Shown here in pieces: positions 259 through 26,099 of a DNA stretch of 42,571 nt. The DNA is from Candidatus Latescibacterota bacterium. GTDB lineage: Bacteria > Krumholzibacteriota > Krumholzibacteriia > WVZY01. The notes beneath the pieces are model-generated. The model was not told the origin of the DNA. It worked only from the letters and a program-made list of their open reading frames with translations, and did no database searches. A program made the position numbers and the translations under genes. Position 1 is the stretch's first letter. Each line of letters starts with the position of its first letter. Location: the NCBI GenBank assembly GCA_011772205.1, contig WVZY01000047.1, positions 1 to 42,571 of the forward strand. Reading direction: 5' to 3'.

Positions 259-3159
259 CTACAAGCCACCGATCGCGATTGCATACGCTGCCCAGATGAA
301 CGGGTGACGTACGTGTCGCGATCCGTAAAGCATCTCTCGTCGTGAGTCGTTGAGGGCTTGAATGGGAAGGGCTCCTCGATTTCTCCATCGTTGTAGAAAT
401 TGTGTCATCTGCTCCCGGGCCGTGTCATCCCGCACATCCCAGAATGTTTGAACGACCGCGCTGGCGCCGGCATCGAGAAAAGCATCACCGAGGCTGGGTC
501 CCTCCGCAACCGAGTCGGTGTACGGAGCTCCGGTTGAGCAGCCCGACATAAAAACTACTCGGCATCGGCTCATATCGGCGGCCCGGATGTCAGCGATATC
601 GAGATAGTTGGCGTCGGGACCCTGATGGGCGTCCGGTTGCGCAACGGGAATCAGCATCAGGTAGGGCACCTGGGGATCACGAAGTGTATGCACAGCGAGA
701 TAGATAATCTCGGCATTTTGCCAGGTCGATTCGAGATTGGCCTTTGTCGCATGTTTGCCCTCGAAGAGTGTCGCGCCAGGGTACAGCCCCGCGACGGCCC
801 ATCCCTCGGCCGCCGCTTCCTTGAGGCGTGGTAGCGGATAGCGTCTTTGCAGCTCTCGCGACGGCTTTGTCCCGACCAGGATGATGCCGGCACTCGTCTG
901 CAGCTCGCTCCTGTCCTCGAATCCGGAGACTGCCTCGGCATGGCGGAGATAGGCAACATCCCAGTTCGCGAGAAGCGGAATGTATTCGTCTCGCTCACCC
1001 ACATCGAACGTCTCGAAAGGCACACGGTTGAGGAAACCATCGCTCGATACGAGAAACAGCCGAGGAGCTCCATGACCTGTATCGCGAACCTCGTGGGGCA
1101 GCAACCAACGAGCGAGCCTTCGCAGATCGTCCACAAGCTGTGCGGGGACATGATCCGTTTCATCACCCGGGTCTGTGGACAATAAGCTCCACGCACCGCT
1201 GATATGCTCACGCACCTCCTCGACAGAAGCGCCAATGACATCGCGGCGAATCGTACCTTGCGAGTTGGTCCAGCACCAGAGCGAATCATGGCGCACGACA
1301 TAGACACTGTGTACGGCGTTCAATTCCATTACCCTCGCAGTCGTTGCGCTAGCCCGCAAGCGAAAGCGCTCGGCCAGCGAGGCACCCGACGGGACCAATC
1401 GCCCCCTACCGCCCAACTTAGCACCATCGCCCACGGAGGCCGGACCGGGACCATTATCCGCGTTGTTACCTATCCAACGATAGAAATCACGCCAGTAGAG
1501 CTCTGCACCATACCCCAGATGGGGATCGCCGGCGGTCAGGTCCTGCATCAACTGCCTTAGGACTTCGCACGCCCCGAGCCATAGATAGCTGTGTGCGCTC
1601 GCGTCCATATGAGACAACGTCATTCTCAACCGCTCCATTCCCTCCTCGAGAGTTCTCCACGCACTATCCGTGTTGCCCGACTCGAGCGCCACGCGACCCA
1701 GCAGCGCATCCCTCCATACGAGCTCTCTTCGGAGGACCTGTTCATTCCCGTGAGAGAGCTCGTCGAATTGTCCGATTGATGCGCTCGCATCTCCCAGCCG
1801 GCCAGCCTGCAGTTCGGCGCGCGCACGCAGCAGAGCGAATCGCGCCGTCATCCGTGGCAGCCGTGCCCCAACGGAGCGTTGGTACCCTTTCTCGATGATC
1901 TCCAGCGCCCGCACCGCGTGGCCGTTGTCGACAAGCCCCACGGCCCAGTAGTACAAGAGTGATGGCTGTTCGGTTCGATAGGGCAGCACCTCAATCGGAT
2001 CGCGGATGCGATTCATAATGGCCTCCGCCCCCAAGACGTCACCGCGAGCCATCAACATGCGCGCCTCGAGCAAGTCGCCCCGCAGCAGATACACGGTCGC
2101 GATCCCGTCCAACTCCTCTTCATACTTGTGCTGCAGCACATGAAGCCGGCGCAGCAGACGCTCGACGATCTGCCAGCAACCGAGCCGAGCATAGAACCTC
2201 ATCGCATCCACGACAAACCGTATCTCGATGTACCGTCCTTTGTACTCACGGCATAGATCCATCGCCTGCGTGTAAAGATCGTGAGCGAGCGAGAGCCGCC
2301 CGAGACGGCCGTAGTGAGCGGCATAAAACGTTTTGATCCGACCTACTTGATGGGGTGCTCGGATTTGCTGCGCGATCTCCAGCGCCTCGTCATAACAGAT
2401 GACCATCGAATCAATCTTGCCAACCGACTCATAGTGCGCGCCAAAAACACCGAGCAACTGGCATGTCATGGGATTTGGCCCCAACGCCTTGAATCCCTCA
2501 TATGCCGCCCGGCGGTAGCGCCACTCGGCTTCCTCGTCACCGATGTTCGAATAAAGATTAGCCAGCAAGTTCAGGCTCATCGGTAACCAAAAAACATCGT
2601 CGTGTGTTTCCAACTCTCGTTTGTATCGTTGCGCTTTCTCGATCTTGTCGCTAATCGTTAGCGATGTATCGGCAAAGATCGATATTAGTTCTCTTCGGAG
2701 TTTTGTAAGCGTCACGCGTCTTTCGGGCGATAAACCCTCCATAAATTCCTGGTGCTCGAGAGACATGCCAAAATGGTACTCCGAGTGCAGTATGAGCGCG
2801 ATGCGTCTTTGGCAGTTCATCAATTGCGAAGCGCAACGTTTGTATGTGTTCAGGTCCACCGTCGCCCCGTATTGCTCCAAATCCCAGATCGCATAGACGA
2901 GCAGGTCGAACCCGGCTTCACGACCGAATCGTACGAGCGTACTGTCGTCGCTCGCGATCAAGTGGCGGGCAAGCTCGGGTGGCAGTGAAGACAAGAACTC
3001 GGGCAGCTCGTCGCTTCGATTGGAACAGGCACACAAGAGCAACGTGAACAAGACGCCGAGGAGTGCCCGCACAGCAACGCCTTGCGGATACCTGTAGCCT
3101 ACAACATTGGAGACGTGATTGGTCTCGCGGCGCTGATGGTTGGGGCGAAAATGTCGCAT
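259..3159 (-). CDS. TPR-CHAT protease-like lipoprotein
   Basis: A 966-residue protein with a hydrophobic N-terminus (about residues 30-44) ending in the lipobox LCAC, so Cys45 is the likely lipidated residue and the protein should be exported. Residues about 190-500 read as degenerate helical TPR-type repeats. The C-terminal 250 residues are a CHAT (caspase HetF-associated with TPRs) domain: His824 in YLAVHTLRD and Cys874 in FMSGCSTGA form the expected dyad, followed by the family GASAVVQTFW block. CHAT domains are caspase-like cysteine peptidases; the substrate here is unknown. It is divergent from the sigma/anti-sigma pair, 260 bp apart. A TATAAT at 3171-3166 sits so close to the ATG that the mRNA may be leaderless. 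An alternative later start (a GTG near residue 28) would leave the signal peptide intact. Function by family; partnership with the sigma factor is inferred. Confidence 0.85.
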   Translation of the reverse strand: MRHFRPNHQRRETNHVSNVVGYRYPQGVAVRALLGVLFTLLLCACSNRSDELPEFLSSLPPELARHLIASDDSTLVRFGREAGFDLLVYAIWDLEQYGATVDLNTYKRCASQLMNCQRRIALILHSEYHFGMSLEHQEFMEGLSPERRVTLTKLRRELISIFADTSLTISDKIEKAQRYKRELETHDDVFWLPMSLNLLANLYSNIGDEEAEWRYRRAAYEGFKALGPNPMTCQLLGVFGAHYESVGKIDSMVICYDEALEIAQQIRAPHQVGRIKTFYAAHYGRLGRLSLAHDLYTQAMDLCREYKGRYIEIRFVVDAMRFYARLGCWQIVERLLRRLHVLQHKYEEELDGIATVYLLRGDLLEARMLMARGDVLGAEAIMNRIRDPIEVLPYRTEQPSLLYYWAVGLVDNGHAVRALEIIEKGYQRSVGARLPRMTARFALLRARAELQAGRLGDASASIGQFDELSHGNEQVLRRELVWRDALLGRVALESGNTDSAWRTLEEGMERLRMTLSHMDASAHSYLWLGACEVLRQLMQDLTAGDPHLGYGAELYWRDFYRWIGNNADNGPGPASVGDGAKLGGRGRLVPSGASLAERFRLRASATTARVMELNAVHSVYVVRHDSLWCWTNSQGTIRRDVIGASVEEVREHISGAWSLLSTDPGDETDHVPAQLVDDLRRLARWLLPHEVRDTGHGAPRLFLVSSDGFLNRVPFETFDVGERDEYIPLLANWDVAYLRHAEAVSGFEDRSELQTSAGIILVGTKPSRELQRRYPLPRLKEAAAEGWAVAGLYPGATLFEGKHATKANLESTWQNAEIIYLAVHTLRDPQVPYLMLIPVAQPDAHQGPDANYLDIADIRAADMSRCRVVFMSGCSTGAPYTDSVAEGPSLGDAFLDAGASAVVQTFWDVRDDTAREQMTQFLQRWRNRGALPIQALNDSRREMLYGSRHVRHPFIWAAYAIAIGGL

Positions 3160-3165
3160 TGAAGC

Positions 3166-3171
3166 ATTATA
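3166..3171 (-). promoter_or_regulatory. Candidate -10 box for the CHAT gene (leaderless?)
   Basis: TATAAT on the minus strand ends 7 bases before the ATG at 3159, the usual distance from a -10 box to +1. Transcription would then start at or next to the start codon. No good -35 box is visible 16-18 bases upstream. Confidence 0.3.
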
Positions 3172-3258
3172 TCACGCAATCGCGTCTCTTGGGTGGTTTT
3201 CGTGCAAGCGATAGGGGGAGATAAAGAAAGTGGTCGGACAAGAGCCAGAGATTACGAA

Positions 3259-3295
3259 AACTTTTTTCGTTGTGTCGTGATGGCGAAAAAAAGTT
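3259..3295. promoter_or_regulatory. Inverted repeat in the divergent CHAT/sigma promoter region
   Basis: The arms AACTTTTTTCG (3259-3269) and CGAAAAAAAGTT (3284-3295) are complementary apart from one extra base, around a 14-base centre. It lies between the two divergent genes and could be an operator or a hairpin. It is followed by a TATAAT at 3339-3344 facing the sigma gene, for which no clear -35 box is seen. Confidence 0.4.
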
Positions 3296-3419
3296 TGCGT
3301 ACGGAGTGATATTACTACCATACCTTTTGTGCGTGTTGTATAATTATATAAAACCCTACATCATTGCAGCGTGCGGAGTGCAAAATAGCTCCGCGTGATT
3401 CCGCTATCTGGATGCGGCT

Positions 3420-4268
3420 ATGAAACCTCGAGGCAATCGCAACGTACCCCGCGAGGGGAACCACGAAAGCAAAGAATCTCTCAAACTCGTGGAGCAGATT
3501 GCCGCCGGGAGCGAGCCGGCGTGGCACCTATTCCTCGAGCGATATTCGGGGCTGATCTATCACGTCGTTCGCCGCCATTTGTTCATTGCAGACGAAGACG
3601 ATACGCGAAACGTTTACGTCGACATACTGAAGGAGCTTTACAACGGCGGGCTCTCGAACTATCGGGGTGAATCCCAGCTCTCCACCTGGCTGATCGTAGT
3701 GGCGAGGCGGCGAGTGGCTGATTTTGTGAGAGTGCGTTACGGCAGGCGGCGCACGCCGCGTGGGTACGATGAACTGTCCGAGTTCGATAAGCAGGTCCTG
3801 CGTCTTGTTTTTGTGGAACGTTTTCCGTTGGAAATCGTGCTTCATACGCTCAACTGGAATGGGCACCCCGCGGAAACGGACGACATCATTGAATCGATCG
3901 ACCGGATCGAGCGGTGTATCGACAAAAGATATCTGAGCCAGCTCGACAAGGAGCACGAGTCGATAAAAGCAGGCACCGCAAATTATCGGATGCTCGAGTA
4001 TATGATTCACGCGAGATTGGAATATGAGGATAGAGCTCGTAATAGCACACCGGATGTCCGACTAATAGAAAGTGAAATAGAGCAGAAGGCCGATCGCCTC
4101 CGCGAGCTGATTTCCGAGCTGCCCATCCTGGAACAACGAGTCATCGATTTGCGATTCCGGCGCGGCTGGTCGGCACGTCAGATATCAGAACGTTTGAACT
4201 TAGGTGGCCAACGACGCACATACACGATAATCGATCGCGCGCTCCGAAAACTCCGGGCCGCTCTGTGA
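3420..4268 (+). CDS. ECF-like RNA polymerase sigma factor with long insert
   Basis: A 282-residue sigma-70 family protein. Residues about 20-105 are region 2, with the core-binding/-10 recognition block YRGESQLSTWLIVVARRRV. Residues about 225-282 are region 4, a helix-turn-helix starting LPILEQRVIDLRF and containing WSARQISERL. ECF factors are usually about 170-200 residues; here some 120 residues separate regions 2 and 4. The insert begins with LSEFDKQVLRLVFVERFPLE, itself like a degenerate second region 4. The start is the ATG at 3420; the ribosome site is weak. It is followed after 46 bases by a membrane zinc-finger protein, the usual place of an anti-sigma factor, and is divergent from the TPR-CHAT lipoprotein. 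The role is therefore probably transcription of a small regulon in response to an envelope signal. The regulon is unknown. Confidence 0.85.
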   Translation: MKPRGNRNVPREGNHESKESLKLVEQIAAGSEPAWHLFLERYSGLIYHVVRRHLFIADEDDTRNVYVDILKELYNGGLSNYRGESQLSTWLIVVARRRVADFVRVRYGRRRTPRGYDELSEFDKQVLRLVFVERFPLEIVLHTLNWNGHPAETDDIIESIDRIERCIDKRYLSQLDKEHESIKAGTANYRMLEYMIHARLEYEDRARNSTPDVRLIESEIEQKADRLRELISELPILEQRVIDLRFRRGWSARQISERLNLGGQRRTYTIIDRALRKLRAAL

Positions 4269-4302
4269 GGTACGAAGAACGGCGTGGATTCACACCCGAA
4301 CA

Positions 4303-4307
4303 AAGGA
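4303..4307 (+). promoter_or_regulatory. Ribosome binding site in front of an ATA codon
   Basis: AGGAG lies 7 bases before an in-frame ATA (4315). No ATG, GTG or TTG lies at a suitable distance. This site argues that translation of the anti-sigma-like gene starts at 4315 rather than at the GTG at 4357. Confidence 0.45.
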
Positions 4308-4314
4308 GTTCGAC

Positions 4315-5250
4315 ATAAAAACCAGACCCCACCTGACCGATACCGACATCGCACGGGTGATCGACGGCACGCTGGATAGACCGGGAAAAGAACGGATTCT
4401 GAGGCACTTGCGATCCTGCGCGAGCTGTTTTGAAGTCTATCAGGACGCTTTGCTCTACAAAGGGCTATGGAAGACTGACGCCTCAAGGCTCGAGTCTACG
4501 GAGGATCTCGTCGCGGCGGGCAAGACGATATCCCGATCCCCTCTCGAAGTCGGGGCCACGACAGGGTCGCATGTGGGCAAGGCGGAATCGATTGGCGAAG
4601 CGCTGTTTCGGCATCGGCTTCGCTTTGGGATTGCTGCGTCGGGCTTGCTCGCCTTCATCGCCGCCGCGGCATTCTGGTTGGGGCACTCTCAGACGTCCCG
4701 GGAACAGCTGGCGCTGGAACCGGTCCGAACAGCGATTGAGACCGCATCGATGTGGGGCTCCGTGATTATCCCGGGTGCGGAGAGGTCTCTCGTTCCCGAA
4801 GGTGCCGCCCTTCGCTCCGTGTACACGCCGATTAGCGAGTCGCTCGACGATGCGCTAACAGATCTCCACGAGCGGTTTCAAAAGGAATCCTCTCCCGCGG
4901 ATGTCGCGCACTGGCTTGTCGCGGGGTATCTGGCAACAGGGCGAATCGATATCACGCGTGATCTCGCGGAAGACGCCCTCCGCAAACACCCCGACGACGT
5001 GAGAATTGTGACTCTCTCGGCGCTCGTCGCCTACGTCGACGGCGATCTCGATCGAGCGGAGCGTCTCCTTCAGCGCGCGCTCACCATCCAACCCCGTGAC
5101 GCGGTCGCGGGGCTTAACCTTGCCGTCGTGTTGGCGGAAAAGGGAGAAAACCTCGAGGCTCGTGAGATACTCGAGGGGATCATCGATCGACATGTCGATA
5201 CGCCGTTCGCCGACAGGGCTCGGGCTATTCTTGAAGAACGCCTTCCGTGA
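4315..5250 (+). CDS. Single-pass zinc-finger/TPR anti-sigma-like protein
   Basis: The second gene of the sigma operon. From the GTG at 4357 the product has 297 residues; the frame stays open back to an ATA at 4315 behind AGGAG, adding KTRPHLTDTDIARV-type sequence that fits an anti-sigma N-terminus well. A HLRSCASC motif (H-x3-C-x2-C, residues 17-24 from the GTG) matches the zf-HC2 zinc-binding anti-sigma fold. One transmembrane segment follows (about 89-109), then an extracytoplasmic part of about 190 residues containing TPR-like repeats (PADVAHWLVAGYLATGRIDI and RAERLLQRALTIQPRD). The expected topology is cytoplasmic zinc finger holding the sigma factor, with a periplasmic TPR sensor or docking domain. 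The nearby exported CHAT protein could cut or bind that domain; this is inference. The start codon is uncertain. Confidence 0.75.
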   Translation: MKTRPHLTDTDIARVIDGTLDRPGKERILRHLRSCASCFEVYQDALLYKGLWKTDASRLESTEDLVAAGKTISRSPLEVGATTGSHVGKAESIGEALFRHRLRFGIAASGLLAFIAAAAFWLGHSQTSREQLALEPVRTAIETASMWGSVIIPGAERSLVPEGAALRSVYTPISESLDDALTDLHERFQKESSPADVAHWLVAGYLATGRIDITRDLAEDALRKHPDDVRIVTLSALVAYVDGDLDRAERLLQRALTIQPRDAVAGLNLAVVLAEKGENLEAREILEGIIDRHVDTPFADRARAILEERLP

Positions 5251-5747: not shown

Positions 5748-7082
5748 TTATTCTTCATCAAGTTTTTTCAGCATCTCCCTGGCATTGTCATTTTCAGGGT
5801 TGAGTTCGAGGGATTTTCTATAGTTTTCAATCGCCTTTTGAGTGTCCCCGTTTTTCAAATAGGCTTCACCCAGAAAGTAATAAGCCCTGTCCGATTTGGG
5901 GTATTCCAAAACCGCACACTCGAATGCTTTAATGGCCTGTTTTGTTTCGTTATTTTCCATAAGTTCATAACCCAGAGCGAGAAGATGCCCTTCGACAACA
6001 GACATCTGATAATTATTAAAATCTCCTCTTTTTATTTCCCTAAAAAGAGCAAGCGCTCCTTCGGTCCCTTCTACACCTTTTTCAATCGCCCTCTCCTTTA
6101 ACAGTTCGAGTATCCATTGAGCTTTATGTCGTTTTGCAGCATACGTCTCATAGGGAAAAAGTGATAAGATGGAAAGGTACCTTTCTCCTTTTTTCAGCTC
6201 TTCCCGCAAATTGATTTTCACAACATCTGCAAAATTATGAAAATGATAAATGTAGATATCTCCTTTCTTCAAGTCACAAATGTAAGAATAAAGTGTAACG
6301 GTCATCGATCCACTGTATTCCTCCCAATGAGTCGCATTCAAGATACTTTGGAATAAGTCAACAGAGATGTTCTTGGATTTTTTGAATATTTCATCCGCCA
6401 TTCGATATCTTGTGTCGGTTATGTTTTCCGGTTTGATTCTCGACTGAAAGAAATTGGTCGCAATTTGATATTTCTCTTTTTTCCTGATGATACTTCCCGT
6501 CGCTTCCATAATTACTGAATTGCCAAACCGGTCCCCATACATTAATTGTCCATCCCCAACTGACATATGATATCTTTCATACAAATTCAGTACTTCTTCC
6601 ACTGTAGAGCATTCTTCCATTGCCTTCAGATGTAAATCATCGACGGGGGGTATTAAACTTGAATCTCGCGGTGGTTTTATGACCGTTTCTGCCGAAGTGC
6701 CATCATAGAATAATCCCTGATCATTCATTCCTCCTTGAGGAATGCGTTCGCCACTGAAATTCAATCCAAAATATACTCTTCCGAATTTTCCTTTTTCAGG
6801 CGGCAAAAACCAAATATCATTTAAGTGGCTCGTCCAGTCTTCATTGCTTCCGGCGAGCGCCGTCCTGTCGTCAGAGGCATAGATCAACGTACAATTTTGT
6901 TGAACATCCAATCCTGTCACAAAGGGATCACCGGCTACCTCGCCTGACTCCGCCTTGATGAGCTCCACAACAGCGGCCGGTGTGCTTTTGATACTGCCTT
7001 CATCTGACCTTGCGAAACCAACTCCCGATATCATGACCAGCCATCCCACCGAGACGGCGATGATTATCTTCCGAGTTCTCAT
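5748..7082 (-). CDS. Secreted Ntn-type linear amide hydrolase with C-terminal TPRs
   Basis: A 444-residue protein with a Sec signal peptide (about residues 1-24, ending near GFARS). A Cys in QQNCTLIYASDDRTALAGSN followed by NEDW resembles the nucleophile region of the choloylglycine hydrolase / acyl-CoA:6-APA acyltransferase-like Ntn family, in which Cys becomes N-terminal after processing. The middle (FGLNFSGERIPQGGMNDQGL) also fits that family. Residues about 360-440 carry TPRs (YYFLGEAYLKNGDTQKAIEN). A ribosome site (GGGAGA) precedes the ATG. The likely role is hydrolysis of a C-N amide bond outside the cytoplasm; the substrate cannot be told. Codons are clearly more AT-rich than in the flanking module, which suggests separate ancestry. 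It is convergent with the sigma operon and has no co-transcribed neighbour. Confidence 0.75.
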   Translation of the reverse strand: MRTRKIIIAVSVGWLVMISGVGFARSDEGSIKSTPAAVVELIKAESGEVAGDPFVTGLDVQQNCTLIYASDDRTALAGSNEDWTSHLNDIWFLPPEKGKFGRVYFGLNFSGERIPQGGMNDQGLFYDGTSAETVIKPPRDSSLIPPVDDLHLKAMEECSTVEEVLNLYERYHMSVGDGQLMYGDRFGNSVIMEATGSIIRKKEKYQIATNFFQSRIKPENITDTRYRMADEIFKKSKNISVDLFQSILNATHWEEYSGSMTVTLYSYICDLKKGDIYIYHFHNFADVVKINLREELKKGERYLSILSLFPYETYAAKRHKAQWILELLKERAIEKGVEGTEGALALFREIKRGDFNNYQMSVVEGHLLALGYELMENNETKQAIKAFECAVLEYPKSDRAYYFLGEAYLKNGDTQKAIENYRKSLELNPENDNAREMLKKLDEE

Positions 7083-7410: not shown

Positions 7411-8558
7411 TATCCGAAAACTCGATTGAGCTGTGCCGTCTTCCTTTAATAATACTTGAGTAGCCCACCCAGTCGCCCTCGGGCCTCAATGACCCCCTCG
7501 CTTTGAGGGTCTGCCCCACTGATTAGGGCGTTCCCGATGCCCTGATGACTGCGCTCGTCGTGGCGTGCGCAGCGTACTCGGCGATAGCCCGAACAAGTGC
7601 CCCTCGCCCAAGGAAGATCATTTGATCGAGACACTCCGACTTGATCGATCTCACGAAGCGTTCGGCGTATGCGTTCATGTCCGGTGCGAGGCATGACGTG
7701 AACAGAACTTCGACACCGGAACTCTCTGGGATTGATCGGAATCTTGGCGAGTACTTCGCGTCTCGGTCAATGACCAAGAAACGTTTTCCAGTCAGGAAGC
7801 CCTCGTCGCAGTCAGCCAGATTTCGGGCAATCTGCTCCATCCACGAGGAAGCCGGGTTTGCGGTCGTACCAGCGATGTGGACACGACGCTTGGCGATATC
7901 GATGACAAATAACGTGAAGTACCTGACCAACCCCCGAGCCGTCTGCACTTCGGTCGTGAAAAAGTCCGCGGCGGCGATCATATGAGCGTGCGAGCGCACG
8001 AATGTCCTCCAGTTCATGGGTCGATCAGGTGAGGGCTTGATCCCGTGCTCCTTCAGCACCTTGGCGACCGTGCTGCGAGCCACACGATGGTTCAAATGCT
8101 TGAGCTGGCCTTGTATCCGCGCATGTCCCCAGCTGGGGTTCTCCTCCGCCATCCGGACAATCAGCTCACGATCACCTTCATGACTCCGGGACGGCCCACT
8201 CGCTTGCTAGGATACGTCCACTTGGCAGCGATGAGCTTGCGGTGCCACGCCAGAATCGTGTCCGGTGTGACGATTGTGGCGATCTGGTGCAAGAGCTTCC
8301 GGCCGAGCGGCTTTCCCTTGGACGCCAGTCCGCGGCGCTGATCGTCGCTGAAACGCAGGCGCTTTCCGCCTGATTCGAGCTGTTCTTTCAACACGCGGTT
8401 CTCTTCAATGAGGTAGCTGATCACGGCCGACTGCTGGCGGCCAACCCAGCCGGCGAATGTGGCCAGCAGGAGCTGGAATCGAATGGCTTCAATCATCCCT
8501 GGAGTATATCAGACGATCTGGAAGTGGTTGTGCTGCCGCGCGATCGATTTTTCGGACA
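7411..8558 (-). mobile_element. Insertion sequence with terminal inverted repeats, decayed
   Basis: About 1.15 kb. The left end reads TATCCGAAAACTCGATTG on the plus strand. The right end reads TGTCCGAAAAATCGATCG on the minus strand. These match at 15 of 18 positions and enclose the transposase pseudogene. No clear target duplication is seen (CTTAG left, CTACG right). The right end interrupts a LuxR-type gene. The transposase type (rve DDE core) places it near the IS3/IS481 group. Confidence 0.7.
7446..8496 (-). pseudogene. DDE (rve-core) transposase, two frameshifts
   Basis: The N-terminal part (8496-8161) reads up to GRPGVMKVI and then runs into a stop. The next frame resumes with [21 protein letters not shown]. 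Adding one base near 8170 restores a single frame. A second one-base loss near 7557-7566 shifts out the end (HDERSHQGIGNALI, closing at GGLLKYY). All catalytic residues are still readable: Asp in AADFF, Asp in VIDRDAKY and Glu in YAERFVRS. Two independent losses argue for a dead copy, unless both are base-calling errors. Programmed frameshifting is unlikely because this family is normally encoded in one frame. Confidence 0.8.
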
Positions 8559-18973: not shown

Positions 18974-21210
18974 TCAAGTGATTACTTCGCGCCTGACCTT
19001 GTCGAAAAACGCCCGGATGCGGCGATCCTTCATATGGTCCTCCAAGAAGACATCCCATTTCATGGTGGGCACAATCAGATATAGATCGCGGGCTTCATAC
19101 GATTTCTCCAGCCAGGCGAGGGCCTTATCGAGCTCTCCGAGCCCAATGTAAAGATAAGCGAAATAGAGCGCCTGAACGTATTCGCGTTTGGATCTGTCGA
19201 TAAGCTCGGCGAGCACCTCTCGCGCTTCCGACGTCTTGCCAAGACTTCCGTATACCGAACCGAGCGTCGAGAGCATCCACGGATTCCTGCCCGAGAGCGT
19301 CACCGCCTTCTCAAGTTCGGTAAGCGCGTCTTCGTTTCTTGATAACATATAGTAATTACCGCCGAGCAGCCAGTGGGCGAGCGTACAATCCGGATTTAGC
19401 TTGAGCGCCCGGTTGAGCCTCTTGACCGATTGTTCGAACTGGCGTACGCCGATCAGGTCCCAGCCGGACCGCCAATGGGCAGGGACGGAGAGGGGATCCA
19501 ATGCTATCGCCCGCTCGTCCTCGCGCAGCGCCTCGTCGGGCCGATCCGCTAAAATCAGCATGGAGGCATACCAGTAATGGGCGGGAGTGTACGCCGGATT
19601 GAGCTCGATAGCCCGCTTGAATTCCTGCTCCGCCTTGGTGAAATCCCAATCGTAGAACAGGTGAATATATGCCAGGGCGTTGTGGGCTTCCGCGATTGTG
19701 TCGTCGATCTCAAGGGCCTTCTGGGCGTATTCCCTCGCCTTGGGCATCGCATCGTGCGAAGGCAGAAAGCCATAGAACGCGAGAAGGGTGTAGGAATCCG
19801 CGATCCCGGCGTAGGGCGCTACGTACTTCGGGTCCTTCTCGATCGCCTCTTTGAAATATTCGACCGCCTTTTTCAATCCCAACCCCCGCTTTTCCCAGAA
19901 GAAGCGGCCAAGTATATAGAGATCGTCCGCCTCGAGATCCGCTGTGCCGCGCTTTACAAGCAGGGCCGCTTCATCTTCCAGGAGTTCTATTTTCAGCCTG
20001 TCGACTATCGCGAGGGAAATCTCATCCTGAATGGCGAAGATGTCTTTCATATTTCTATCGTACTTTTCGGACCACAGGTGATAGCCGTCGCTAACACTGA
20101 CGAGCTGTGCAGTGATGCGCAGTCGATCACCCGCCTTTCGAATGCTGCCTTCGAGTACGGTATCCACGTTCAGCTTGTCGCCGATCTCATGAACATCATA
20201 CTTTTCGCCCTTGAATGAAAAGGCAGATGTCCGGGCGGCCACCCGCAGTGTCTTGACGTGAGTCAACGCGTTGATCAGCTCTTCGGCGAGCCCATCGCAG
20301 AAATACTCCTGGTCTTTATCGGGACTCATATCCACGAAGGGGAGGACGGCGATGGAATACTTTTCTTTTGTGGAATCATCGTGTTTGCTTTTCGTGGTGG
20401 CATGATCCTTAGCTCTCGTAGGTCGGCGGCGAACGCTTCCATCCGCTCGTACCGGTCCTCCGGATCTTTGGCGAGGGCCTTCCCTATAATCTGTTCGAGC
20501 TCTTTGGGTACATCAGAACGTCGGCTTTTTATCGACGGAGGTTTCCCATTTATAATGCGGTATATTGTTGCTTGCTCGTAGTCGGCCTTGAAGTGCAGCT
20601 CGCCCGTTATCATCTCATAGAGCACAATCCCCAGTGACCAGATGTCGGTTCGATGATCGACGGCATCCCCCCTTCCCTGTTCAGGAGACATATATGCTAC
20701 CGTTCCAATCGTTGTTCCTGATTGAGTGAGCTGCGTCCTGCCAGACGACTTCGCCAAGCCAAAATCCATCACCTTCACCCGACCGGCCGCGGTGAGCATG
20801 ATGTTGGCAGATTTGATGTCGCGGTGGATGATCCCTTTACTATGCGCTTCTTGCAACCCTTCTGCAATCTGGACGGTGATCTCAATGGCTTCATCGAGTT
20901 GCAATGGGCCCGATTTGATCTTGGCTTTGAGGCTTTTTCCCTCAACACACTCCATCGCAATGAAGGATTGATCCTTATACTCGTCAATTTCGTGGACCGT
21001 GCAGATATACGGATGATTCAAGGCGGCTGCTGCCTGGGCCTCGTGGATAAAACGGATTTTGTCTTCCTCGGTACCGACAGCGTGAGAAGAGAGGAACTTG
21101 AGCGCGACGGTTCGTTTGAGCTTGGTGTCCTCGGCCTTGTAGACCACGCCCATACCACCCCCGCCGGGCTTTTCGAGGATTTTATAGTGGGATATAATTT
21201 TACCGATCAT
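18974..21210 (-). pseudogene. Ser/Thr kinase-TolB-like-TPR protein, split by a frameshift (third of array)
   Basis: The N-terminal frame (21210-20326) is a Hanks-type kinase: a Gly loop read as PGGGGMG, Lys in TVALKFL, HRDIKSAN, VMDFGLAK and YMSPEQ. It then leaves frame near 20380-20412. The other frame carries SIAVLPFVDMSP and the rest of a TolB-like N-terminal domain (DQEYFCDGLAEELINAL), followed by a long TPR array to 18974. Without the shift the protein would be about 740 residues, as in the intact paralogue at 23725-25953. The ATG at 21210 overlaps the end of the preceding gene by 11 bases, so translation is coupled. As written it would give a free kinase and a TPR protein. No membrane segment is visible in the linker. 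Confidence 0.8.
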
Positions 21211-23723
21211 TCTTCTCCACTCGTTCCCGCATGTTAGCGATACGCGCTTTGAAATCCGCCGTCATTTCCTTGAATTGTGGGTCATCACGAAGATCTGCCA
21301 GAAGCGGATCCATCTCTACCACGCGAATGACGACAAAATCGGAATCTAACGCTTTTTGCAGCCACCGGAGAGCTTCGGTTCGATTACCCCTGATGCACTC
21401 GGCTTGGGCGAGCCAATAGAATTGTTCCCCCTCTTCATTACCGTCTTTGATCGCACGCTTAATGGCGTTCGACGCCTCATCGAGCAAAACGTTTGCAGCT
21501 TCGATTTCGCCCAGCTGCCATAGGACATAGGCCAGCTGTACTTGACAATCGCGAGGTCCACCTAAGAGCGATCGACGGCCCTCGTACAATTCGACAGCTT
21601 TAGCAAGGTGCTGTCTTGCCTCGGAGAGATTCCCCTCCATGACCTCGACCATCCCCAGCCATTGGAGAAGAGAGGGGTGATCTGGAGTCAACATCATTAA
21701 GCGCAATATTCGATCTCTTATTTCATCGTAACGCTGTTCCGCCATCTCAAGCCACATTAGACCAGCGTTCGAGAATAACTCATAACGCCTGATCTCGAGC
21801 GCTTTTTCAAAATATTGTCGTGCCGTTTCCAGATCATCGAGAAGCAAATATGCTATTCCTAATCCACCAAAGGTTTCAGCTAGTGACTCTTCGTCTCTCC
21901 CCAGTCGAATTGATTTATTGAACAAATGAATCGCCTCGTCCGCCCGACCGGATACTAGGGCGTTCCATCCTAGATTTTCTACGGCGACTACAAGGTTCGG
22001 ATTGTATTCCAGCGCCTTCGTGTAGGCATCCCGGGCCTCGCTGTATCGTCCCTCTAGGTCGTACACGAGACCGAGGGCTTTGTGAGCTTCGGCGAGCTCC
22101 GAATTCAATCCGATCGCTTTGTTGGCGGCAACGTACGCCGAATCGAGCCAAACCTGAGCAAAATCAAATCTAAACGCCCGCTGCGCATACGCGTCCGCCA
22201 GGCCAGCGTGAGCGAGAGCGTACTCTGGATCGATCTCTAATGCTTTTTTGAACATCACAGTCGCGGCTTCGTTGTCTTCTTTCCGAAACTTGTTGTAGTA
22301 TTCGCGGCCTCTGAGATACGCGTCGTATGCGGCCATGTCCTGAGTCGGTTCCGCTGTGATTCTGCTTTTTTCTTCCCGTGTAAGTCTTACTTCGAGCGCG
22401 CGCGATTTTTTCGGCCACATCGCTCTGGATTTTGAATATGTCTCTGAGCTCACGATCGTACGTCTCCGCCAAGAGGTGCTCATCGGATCGCGCATCGATC
22501 AGCTGGCTTATAATTCGGACTTGTCCGCCCGCGCGCCGAACACTGCCTTCCAAAATCGCGTCGACGTTCAACTCCTCACCGATCTCGCGCAGACTCTTGT
22601 CGGTGTCTTTGTATCGCATCGTGGATGTTCGCGAAATCACACTCAGATCCGAAATTTGTGATAACTGCGTGATGATGTCTTCGGTGATACCGTCGCTGAA
22701 ATATTCGTTCTCGGGATCGGCACTGAGGTTCTCGAATGGAAGGACGGCAATCCAGGTCCGGTCGGAGGGCACCGGCGGCTGTCGCGGGGCCCGCTGAATT
22801 ACGGCAATAGCAGCAATGGCGACAACGGCAATTACACCGAGTACCGCCCATCGGGCACGGCGTGAGTTAAGCAGGGTTCTCTTTTTGTCCGTTGCTTCTT
22901 TGGGAAGAAGCGCGTTTAGCGCTTCCGACAGTTCCTTGGCACTTCCAATGCGTCGTTCCCTGTCTTTTTCTAGACACCGTGTGATCACACGGGCCAAGTC
23001 GTCGGGTAAATCGGGGCGAAGGGTTTTGGGCGAGACCGGCTCTTCGTTGACAATCGAATAGCCGATGGCCATTTCGTGTTCTCCACGAAACGGCAGCTGT
23101 CCGGTCGCCAACTGATACAAAATAACACCCAAGGAGAACAGATCCGATCGAGCATCCAACTCTTCCCCGCGGGTCTGTTCCGGTGACATATATGAAACCG
23201 TTCCTACAGTGCTCCCTGATTTTGTCAGTTGCGGAGAACCTTTGAGTTTGGCCAATCCAAAATCGGTGATCTTGACCTGTCCTTTATCAGTTAGCAGGAG
23301 ATTGTCCGGTTTGAGATCTCTGTGGACGACCCCGTTTTCGTGGGCGTGTGCGAGCCCCCGGGCGATCTGGACACTGAAATCCACGACCTGTTCCAGACTC
23401 AGATTGCGGCCGGCGTCATGAACATTCTTCGCGAACGTTTTGAGCGTACCGCCGGGGACATACTCGAGAGCGATGAACTTTCTCCCGTCGACCTCATCCA
23501 GTTCGTAGATCGTTGCGATGTGAGGGTCGTTGAGCGCCGAGACCGCTCGGGCTTCTCTGTTGAATCGTTCAACTTCCTCGGCGTTTTCGAGCCGATCCGG
23601 AGGCGGAAACTTGAGCGCCACAGTACGGCCAAGCCGGATGTCCTCGGCCTTGTAGACCACGCCCATCCCGCCCTCGCCGAGCTTTTCGAGGATCTTGTAG
23701 TGGGATATGGTCCGGCCGATCAT
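21200..23723 (-). pseudogene. Membrane Ser/Thr kinase-TolB-like-TPR protein, split by a frameshift (second of array)
   Basis: The kinase domain is complete: LGEGGMG at 15-21, Lys38 in TVALKF, HRD 134-136, DFG 154-156, YMSPEQ. A transmembrane helix follows (about residues 291-310), then the TolB-like domain starting WIAVLPFENLS. The frame breaks at GCGCGCGC (about 22397-22404): restoring a GC pair, or removing one base, joins SDVAEKIARA to LEVRLTREEKSR and an intact TPR array of about 400 residues. Only this member of the array has a membrane helix, so its TPR part would lie outside if the helix is real. The ATG at 23723 is one base after the stop of the preceding gene. Whether the break is slippage, decay or error is open. 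Confidence 0.8.
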
Positions 23724-23724
23724 G

Positions 23725-25953
23725 TCACAATCCGATCTTTTTCAGTAACTCATTGTACTGTAAGTCGGGTAAATGAACGCCGTAGAAGGAACCAACTTTC
23801 AACCACGTCAACAACGGATCCCTTTCTACGTAGGCTTTCTCAAAATAATCAAATGCCTCGTCAATCCTGCCAAGGCCAATGAGGGTGTGGGCCTGGTGCA
23901 TTGGAGAAACGTACCGCGTTTTTGCCAGTTCGTTCAGAATGTCAAGGATTCTCAAGGCATCTCTGGCTTGACCACACGCCCCGTAGTAATATCCGAAATA
24001 CCCAAGCGTGAAAGGGTGTTCTGCAGCAGACGCTTCGACTTGGCTCATTATCCGGATAGCTCTGTCACACATGCCATTTTCCGCATAAGCCATAACGATC
24101 CACCCGTTCGCTATCAGGAAGTTAGGGTCTAATTCGAGGGTTTTCTTCTGGTTCGCGATGCTCTCTTCGTACCGACGTGCGAAATAATACAGAAGCCCAA
24201 CGATCGCATTTATAATCAGCGATAGGGGGTCCAAATCCCGAGCTTTCTCTGCCTCATTGATCCCCTCATCGAATCTACCCGTAACAGTGAGGTACAGGCC
24301 ATACCACTCATGGGCCGTTGCGTAGTTCGGGCTAAGCTCGATAGCGCGGATGAATTCGCTTTCTGCAGCGGACCAGTCCCATTCATAAAATGTCTTCGCG
24401 AAGCCCAGCGACGCGTGGGCCTCTCCCAGCGTGTCATCGATCTCCAACGCTTTTTTTGCCGCTGCTATTGCCTTCGGGAAGGCCTCTTTGGGTGGAAGAT
24501 AGCCAAACATACCGGTAATATTGTATGTATCGGCAACTCCAACGTGGGCGAGCGCATAACCGGGATCTTTATCGATTGCCTGGCGGAAGCACTCCATAGC
24601 CCTTTTCATACCGCCTTCGTGCCGACGATTCCAGAAGTAGAGGCCCTTGAGATAAAGATTGTGGGCTTCCTGGTTGATGGTATGCCGTTTTACGAGCGCG
24701 CTTCTCTCTTCTCCAAGAAGTTTGACTTTGAGCTTCTTCACAATCGCCAACGATATTTCGTCCTGGATCGCGAAGATATCATCGAGTTCTCGGTCATATT
24801 TCTCCGACCAAATGTGAAATCCATCTTCGATGTTTATCAGCTGTGCGGTGATCCGCAGCCGATTGCCCGCTTTTCGAATGCTCCCCTCAAGAACCGTTTT
24901 TACCTCAAGTTTGTGTCCAATCGTTTTAATATCACTGTCGTGTTCTTTGAACTGGAATGCCGAGGTCCGCGCCGCCACCCGAAGATCCTTCAGTTTGACT
25001 AGTGCGTTTATGAGCTCCTCGGCAATCCCTTCGCAGAAATATTCCTGGTCTCTCTGGGAGCTCATATCTCTGAATGGAAGCACTGCTATCGAAGGCTTGG
25101 ATTCTTTTGCACTTGCCTCCCTTTCTGTAGTCCGAGGTCTTCGAGTTTCCAAAAGCGATTCCAAATCCTTCCTTAGATCTTCAGCGCTCGCGTACCGTTC
25201 CCCAATGTCCTTTTTCAAAGCCTTTTCGATGATCTGCTCGAGCTTTCTCGGCACATCAGAACGACGACTTCTGATCGACGGAGTCTCCTCATTCATAATG
25301 AGATATATCGTTGCCTGTTCGTAGTCAGCCTTGAAGGGCAGTTCGCCCGTAAGCATCTCGTAGAGCACAATCCCCAGTGACCAGATGTCGGTCTGAAAAC
25401 CAACCGGATCCCCTCTTCCCTGTTCGGGAGACATATAAGCCACCGTTCCAACCGTTGTTCCCGCTTGAGTCAGCTGCGTTCTACCAGACGACTTGGCCAG
25501 GCCAAAGTCCATCACCTTCACCCGTCCGGCCGTGGTGAGCATGATGTTGGCAGACTTGATGTCGCGGTGAATGATCCCTTTGCTATGGGCTTCCTCCAGT
25601 CCTTCCGCGATCTCGACGGCTATCTCGACGGCTTCATCGATTTGTAATGGGCCTGATTTGATCTTGGCTTTGAGACTCTCTCCCTCGACATATTCCATAG
25701 CGATGAAGGATTGATCTTCATACTCATCAATCTCGTAGACCGTGCAGATATTCGGGTGATTCAAAGCGGCCGCAGCCTGAGCCTCGTGGATAAAACGAGT
25801 CTTGTCTTCCTCGGTGCCGACGGCTTGAGGAGAGAGGAACTTGAGGGCGACGGTGCGCTTGAGCTTGGTGTCCTCGGCCTTGTAGACCACGCCCATACCG
25901 CCTTCGCCGAGTTTTTCGAGGATCTTGTAGTGGGATATGGTCTGGCCGATCAT
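23725..25953 (-). CDS. Ser/Thr protein kinase with TolB-like and TPR domains (first of array)
   Basis: 742 residues from the ATG at 25953, chosen because GGAGGG (25958-25963) lies just upstream and because the promoter at 26020-26048 is downstream of the longer frame's start at 26067. Residues 1-270 are a Hanks-type kinase: LGEGGMG at 15-21, Lys38, HRD 129-131, DFG 149-151, YMSPEQGRG. Residues about 320-440 are a TolB N-terminal-like domain (PSIAVLPFRDMSS, then YFCEGIAEELINAL), and the rest is a TPR array. No membrane helix is seen, so it should act in the cytoplasm. Such proteins phosphorylate Ser/Thr of partner proteins; the TPR part probably selects them. It begins a three-gene operon of paralogues and is the only unbroken one. 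Confidence 0.85.
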   Translation of the reverse strand: MIGQTISHYKILEKLGEGGMGVVYKAEDTKLKRTVALKFLSPQAVGTEEDKTRFIHEAQAAAALNHPNICTVYEIDEYEDQSFIAMEYVEGESLKAKIKSGPLQIDEAVEIAVEIAEGLEEAHSKGIIHRDIKSANIMLTTAGRVKVMDFGLAKSSGRTQLTQAGTTVGTVAYMSPEQGRGDPVGFQTDIWSLGIVLYEMLTGELPFKADYEQATIYLIMNEETPSIRSRRSDVPRKLEQIIEKALKKDIGERYASAEDLRKDLESLLETRRPRTTEREASAKESKPSIAVLPFRDMSSQRDQEYFCEGIAEELINALVKLKDLRVAARTSAFQFKEHDSDIKTIGHKLEVKTVLEGSIRKAGNRLRITAQLINIEDGFHIWSEKYDRELDDIFAIQDEISLAIVKKLKVKLLGEERSALVKRHTINQEAHNLYLKGLYFWNRRHEGGMKRAMECFRQAIDKDPGYALAHVGVADTYNITGMFGYLPPKEAFPKAIAAAKKALEIDDTLGEAHASLGFAKTFYEWDWSAAESEFIRAIELSPNYATAHEWYGLYLTVTGRFDEGINEAEKARDLDPLSLIINAIVGLLYYFARRYEESIANQKKTLELDPNFLIANGWIVMAYAENGMCDRAIRIMSQVEASAAEHPFTLGYFGYYYGACGQARDALRILDILNELAKTRYVSPMHQAHTLIGLGRIDEAFDYFEKAYVERDPLLTWLKVGSFYGVHLPDLQYNELLKKIGL

Positions 25954-26019
25954 TTTACCCTCCAGCAGGTTAGCAACGTGGTGGGCAAGACAAAAGGTGC
26001 GGTTCCCGGGAGTGGTCCC

Positions 26020-26048
26020 ATTATAGCCTAGTGAAAAACGGCTGTACA
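26020..26048 (-). promoter_or_regulatory. Sigma-70 promoter of the kinase operon
   Basis: On the minus strand TGTACA (26048-26043), a 17-base spacer and TATAAT (26025-26020). The start of transcription would be near 26013, giving a leader of about 60 bases before the kinase ATG. Confidence 0.55.
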
Positions 26049-26099
26049 GGATCAACTCCTTGATCACCCGATAGATGTGGATGTTCCAGTATTTTGCAG

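Follow-up and report, generated by a model that had tools for sequence, protein, structure and literature searches.

Gene content of the locus

The window analysed here is a whole contig of 42.6 kb (42,571 nt; WVZY01000047.1) from the 4.13-Mb genome, in 81 contigs, of a Candidatus Latescibacterota bacterium (GCA_011772205.1) assigned by GTDB to the Krumholzibacteriota. At its left end lie three genes (Table 1). One, on the minus strand, encodes a protein with tetratricopeptide repeats (TPR) and a caspase/separase-like CHAT domain. Divergent from it, on the plus strand, are genes for an extracytoplasmic function (ECF) sigma factor and for a putative zinc-binding anti-sigma (ZAS) factor. The original prediction, made from the letters of the sequence, had named these three genes, and profile matches and open reading frames confirm them at the same places. 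We propose that they probably form an envelope-to-genes signalling pathway.

The CHAT domain scores 119.7 bits with PF12770 (cut-off 24, E=2.2e-34) and carries a His/Cys dyad. TPR matches in the protein are weak; a TPR superhelix is predicted in the AlphaFold2 (AF2) model (pLDDT 84, pTM 0.84). His824 and Cys874, the dyad named in the prediction, are invariant across an alignment of 12 CHAT sequences, and His, Cys and Asp911 are kept in 15/15 CHAT proteins from modules of this kind that could be scored. Conservation of the dyad among homologues, which had been put forward as a check, was therefore observed. A hydrophobic N-terminal signal or anchor is present in all 16 module CHATs checked, and in most it is followed by a Cys. 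In the window protein Cys45 comes after a hydrophobic N-terminus; the predicted lipobox is only lipobox-like in sequence (LCA/C45). Three module CHATs (L034, L046, L047) have a plain transmembrane (TM) anchor instead, which would keep these three at the inner membrane. When the AF2 model was compared with the PDB, the fold matches were, in rank order, the transmembrane anti-sigma DdvA, separase and Csx29. A profile of the CHAT half against PDB sequences gave DdvA (E=4e-17, His and Cys kept) and next separase (E=1e-5, weak). The full-length profile was uninformative because generic TPR matches dominated; the CHAT half alone led to DdvA. A PADLOC search for a defence-system identity returned nothing convincing.

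The sigma protein matches the sigma70-ECF profile TIGR02937 with 59.8 bits (cut-off 42.9, E=2.4e-16) and has regions 2 and 4 with no region 3. Both regions had been predicted from the sequence. Region 4 is found by profile (E=5e-8), whereas region 2 alone falls under the Pfam cut-off and is recognised from the AF2 model, which matches sigmaE region 2 (TMt ~0.75). Between them lies a middle domain that is also found in the aligned sigma relatives across the phylum. Such an extra domain is unusual for an ECF sigma factor.

The third protein has the architecture of a ZAS membrane anti-sigma: an HxxxCxxC zinc finger precedes one TM helix, and the gene adjoins the sigma gene. After the single TM helix comes a TPR region (E ~1e-10). 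By this architecture the protein may be classed as a ZAS-type anti-sigma, and its families suggest that it would bind and inhibit the sigma factor. The compartments of the two partners are compatible, with the anti-sigma TPR beyond the TM helix and an export signal or anchor on the CHAT proteins. Zinc finger, TM helix and TPR were correctly foreseen, but the start codon was not. Starting at GTG 4357 would remove the first His of the zinc finger; the reading frame extends further upstream, and relatives can be aligned from ~4315, the position of an ATA codon preceded by AAAGGAG. The start probably lies near 4315. Neither anti-sigma gene of this genome has an ATG, GTG or TTG ahead of the zinc finger (window 4231-4357; paralogue L031 4309-5271), and in the window the ATA is preceded by a good Shine-Dalgarno sequence. 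A rare start codon that keeps expression low and an assembly error are both possible explanations.

Table 1. Features of the CHAT, sigma and anti-sigma locus (positions in the window)
Feature	Position	Strand	Evidence
TPR-CHAT protein, 966 aa, N-terminal signal/anchor, predicted extracytoplasmic	259..3159	-	PF12770 E=2.2e-34; AF2 pTM 0.84; hydrophobic N-terminus then Cys45
CHAT (caspase/separase-like) domain, residues 678-964	268..1128	-	Pfam CHAT; folds like DdvA, separase, Csx29
Catalytic Cys874 codon	538..540	-	invariant in two alignments and 15/15 scored module CHATs
Catalytic His824 codon	688..690	-	invariant in two alignments and 15/15 scored module CHATs
Cys45, lipobox-like LCA/C	3025..3027	-	sequence; relatives with Cys or TM anchor at same place
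Inverted repeat between divergent genes, candidate shared control element	3253..3301 (arms 3253-3267 and 3287-3301)		sequence; core AAAAAGTTTKCGTA
ECF-type sigma factor with extra middle domain, 282 aa	3420..4268	+	TIGR02937, Sigma70_r4, AF2 model
Sigma region 2, residues 13-107	3456..3740	+	AF2 helices; TMt 0.65-0.77 to structures of sigmaE region 2
Middle helical domain, residues 121-183, weakly sigma4-like	3780..3968	+	AF2 helices; hhalign against own sigma4 E=2e-5, probability 77%
Sigma region 4, residues 212-282	4053..4265	+	PF04545 E=5e-8
Anti-sigma with zf-HC2, a single TM helix and an outer TPR; probable start ATA 4315 following AAAGGAG	4315..5250	+	profile matches, hydropathy, alignment of relatives
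ZAS motif His8, His31, Cys35, Cys38	4336..4428	+	zf-HC2 E=6e-8; C35 and C38 invariant in 22 relatives
Single TM helix	4624..4680	+	hydropathy 2.05 over 19 aa
Invariant Arg167 in outer linker (ALR/S), candidate P1 of CHAT cut	4813..4815	+	22/22 relatives; motif test against controls

Conservation of the linkage

Relatives of the sigma factor were collected by comparing the protein with 98 related genomes and a sigma profile with 80 genomes of the phylum (Krumholzibacteriota-like metagenome-assembled genomes, MAGs), and the neighbourhoods were judged from loci retrieved individually. Full-length relatives numbered 27 and came from 22 of the 80 genomes. A CHAT gene adjoins 23 of them, in 15 cases divergent as in the window and in eight collinear in the order sigma, anti-sigma, CHAT. 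Because the CHAT-sigma linkage is found in two gene orders, it outlasts rearrangement. In 26 of the 27 loci the gene after sigma is that for the anti-sigma; in L039 a run of N interrupts this place. Co-occurrence and gene order had been set beforehand as a check, which the module passes, and with the linkage so conserved a chance assembly of the trio is excluded. Among the four loci with no adjacent CHAT gene, one (L055) runs into a contig edge; the other three are considered below. A second complete copy of the module is present in the same genome, on another contig (C74). The pairwise distance matrices of CHAT, sigma and anti-sigma correlate with r = 0.90-0.91 (12 modules; values not corrected for the species tree), which, as far as sequence distances go, shows joint descent of the three proteins.

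Two CHAT peptide patterns searched across 84,980 genomes gave 13 relatives, mostly in entries titled Krumholzibacteriota, Latescibacterota or similar MAGs. The long sigma factor was found in four genomes beyond the phylum when 387 genomes across the domain were sampled, and CHAT lies near it in three of these, twice in one (four sigma relatives).

Two comparison sets of other CHAT loci were also assembled. The first held 60 loci, in part picked for known nearby sigma matches, so the share with a sigma neighbour in that set is a biased estimate. The second held 40 further loci retrieved after the motif described below had been fixed, one of them picked for a known zinc-finger neighbour; an ECF-like match lies within 3.5 kb in about 31 of the 40. 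CHAT genes of the phylum are broadly associated with ECF genes, and they often stand beside an ordinary ECF sigma gene and zinc-finger or other membrane proteins (L077-L133, L204-L243). The outer domains of these membrane proteins differ, some being Ig-like or of other kinds instead of TPR.

An invariant arginine in the outer linker

Comparison of 22 anti-sigmas, 16-41% identical to that of the window, left three invariant residues: the two zinc cysteines and Arg167. Arg167 lies in the outer linker, 39-52 residues beyond the membrane helix and ahead of the TPR. The residue before it is hydrophobic or aromatic (Thr in L040), and the residue after it is small (S, G, D, N, A). From this alignment we derived the motif (hydrophobic)R(small) and compared CHAT-linked anti-sigmas outside the family with 52 controls from the phylum, zinc-finger membrane proteins that have no CHAT in the retrieved stretch, which for some comprised 1.5-kb flanks only. 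Within 60 aa outside the TM helix the motif was found in 15 of 16 non-family CHAT-linked anti-sigmas of the first set and in 16 of the 52 controls (p = 8e-6, one-sided Fisher test). In the second set it was found in 14 of 16 zinc-finger anti-sigmas against the same 16/52 (one-sided Fisher p = 7e-5). Narrowing the range to 5-35 aa, a choice made after the first set had been seen, retained 15/16 and 14/16 (29/32 together) and reduced the controls to 7/52. Arg167 looks like a candidate cut site of the CHAT protease. Cleavage after Arg, with a separase-like specificity of CHAT, is suggested only indirectly, by the invariant residue and by the weak separase profile match (E=1e-5).

Proposed mechanism and alternatives

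We favour a mechanism in which CHAT is a separase-like site-1 protease that would cut the linker of the anti-sigma and free the sigma factor. The zinc-finger anti-sigma, judged by its families, would hold the sigma factor at the inner membrane. CHAT would be exported and kept either at the outer side of the inner membrane or in lipoprotein form, with its TPR superhelix as a sensor or docking arm. Once activated, it may cut the linker that joins the membrane helix to the outer TPR, most likely after Arg167, separating the TPR domain from the membrane helix as in a classical site-1 event. The cut could then open the anti-sigma to an intramembrane protease and cytoplasmic proteases, with release of the sigma factor; the genome encodes an M50 family protease. 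Among eukaryotic relatives of known specificity the closest is separase, which cleaves after Arg. Since a cut at Arg167 would be a site-1 event, an M50 member is encoded and separase cuts after Arg, this is the most likely reading, and we give it a probability of about 0.5. Complex formation, cleavage, the cut site and sigma release are what we infer from these data.

Several observations weigh against such a protease role. Three loci (L041, L049, L054) retain sigma, anti-sigma and the Arg with no neighbouring CHAT, and one genome of another phylum that has the sigma factor and a ZAS protein has no CHAT at all. The dyad is equally conserved in CHATs away from any sigma gene and is therefore no pointer to the anti-sigma as substrate. 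The motif contrast is weaker when counted by sequence cluster (6/8 CHAT-linked vs 3/23 control clusters, p = 0.0026), the motif is absent from three of the 32 other CHAT-linked anti-sigmas, and Arg167 could be structural rather than a cut site. Csx29 needs no single substrate residue (PMC10028731), so Arg specificity is not general among CHATs.

The CHAT protein might instead act without proteolysis, as a sensor or co-restrainer that docks on the outer TPR of the anti-sigma and signals by conformation, in the manner of a DdvA split in two. The top fold match, DdvA, does have its CHAT within a transmembrane anti-sigma, and both window proteins carry TPR. However, a pure scaffold would not need the His, Cys and Asp that every scored module CHAT keeps, and the sole invariant Arg is in the linker and not in the TPR; we regard a sensor of this kind as unlikely. 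Alternatively, CHAT may be the output: the sigma factor would switch on an envelope protease, a stress or death effector with other targets, while the TPR of the anti-sigma answers a different trigger. The divergent layout, in which an inverted repeat separates the promoters, would suit a target gene, and the sigma and anti-sigma pairs at L041, L049 and L054 get by with no adjacent CHAT. The core of that repeat, AAAAAGTTTKCGTA, has no further exact copy in the genome and therefore gives no regulon, and the repeat was not seen in relatives. No 9-mer is common to at least three of the seven closest intergenic regions, and positions 3100-3480 hold no sigma70-like site or terminator. An output role is thus opposed by the lack of a promoter motif common to relatives and by the persistence of the linkage in collinear operons. 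Nor does it explain why the Arg is invariant and recurs in other anti-sigmas linked to CHAT, and we rank it next below the sensor in likelihood. Control could also run the other way, the outer domain of the anti-sigma inhibiting the CHAT protease in securin-separase style and the sigma output reporting the state of the complex. The separase fold match agrees with such a scheme, in which the conserved linker Arg could occupy the S1 pocket as a pseudosubstrate, but the Arg is followed by small residues that vary, as they would at a cut site, and we consider inverse control quite improbable.

Relation to known systems

A link between CHAT proteins and sigma factors is already known from Craspase (PMC10028731), from DdvA (PDB 8rot) and from the genetic context of ECF54 (PMC8999054). 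The DdvS-DdvA pair of Myxococcus xanthus (PDB 8rot, 8rw5) resembles the window in its ECF sigma factor and transmembrane anti-sigma, in a CHAT domain with His and Cys retained, and in DdvA being the best match of the window CHAT by both fold and profile. In contrast, DdvA has its CHAT inside the anti-sigma polypeptide (a chain of 991 aa), whereas CHAT in the window is a separate exported protein, the genes of such modules are divergent or collinear, and the anti-sigma has a small TPR domain only. The window protein is therefore not of the DdvA type. The signal that inactivates DdvA is unknown (PMC4374960).

The original prediction had drawn its comparison with the type III-E TPR-CHAT protease. 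Csx29 is indeed among the fold matches, although DdvA, which was not named there, is nearer. Similar to the window, Craspase (Cas7-11, Csx29, Csx30, CASP-sigma) places a TPR-CHAT protease beside an inhibitor of an ECF-type sigma factor. Csx29 works as part of an RNA-guided complex that Cas7-11 switches when bound to target RNA; its cut in Csx30 falls in a loop at 427-429, no residue being essential (PMC10028731). The window differs in having an exported CHAT and, as anti-sigma, a membrane protein with a zinc finger, and its CHAT scores 16.4 bits with the Csx29 family NF041237 against a cut-off of 300. In agreement with the predicted absence of CRISPR, the window contains no CRISPR-like array and the trio has no Cas7-11 gene beside it, the rest of the genome not having been searched for Cas7-11.

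The RseA-DegS-RseP and RsiW pathways share with the window a membrane-spanning anti-sigma controlled from outside, a cut in the outer linker, here proposed, and an available M50 protease. Unlike in these pathways, the proposed site-1 protease is a co-encoded cysteine protease of clan CD (CHAT) and not a PDZ serine protease. In the ECF54 group, ECF sigma genes have CHAT-domain proteins in their genetic context (PMC8999054). ECF54 is described with no anti-sigma factor, whereas the window's kind has a ZAS anti-sigma in nearly every locus (26/27) and so falls outside that group.

As far as our tools and the literature show, several points are new: CHAT is split off as an exported protein that accompanies a zinc-finger anti-sigma, this form ranges broadly over one phylum and beyond it, the sigma factor is unusual, and the candidate cut site is invariant. 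Our literature searches, which lay largely outside subscription papers, found no description of the split arrangement of CHAT and zinc-finger anti-sigma. Although ECF factors are the commonest alternative sigma factors, few of them have, to our knowledge, an identified site-1 protease. With a caspase-like protease encoded alongside and its cut residue predicted, the site-1 step can be tested directly. If our proposal is correct, bacterial CHAT proteins outside CRISPR would gain a defined substrate, and there would be a hint of where the Craspase circuit, in which protease, sigma inhibitor and sigma factor are connected, originated. More tentatively, and with the odds against it, exported CHATs could represent site-1 proteases of a widespread class, which cut ECF anti-sigmas after a juxtamembrane Arg, with Craspase and the fused DdvA as two offshoots.

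Other genes of the window

Next to the module, positions 5748-7082 encode a protein in which a part weakly resembling C45 autoproteolytic acyltransferases is fused to a TPR at the C-terminus. An IS3-type transposase-like integrase fragment follows at 7523-8152 (rve_3 and HTH_21 matches under cut-off). Further along, at 20326-26067, three similar serine/threonine kinase-like reading frames, some possibly broken, lie in tandem and share a 28-bp stretch at 21125, 23638 and 25868.

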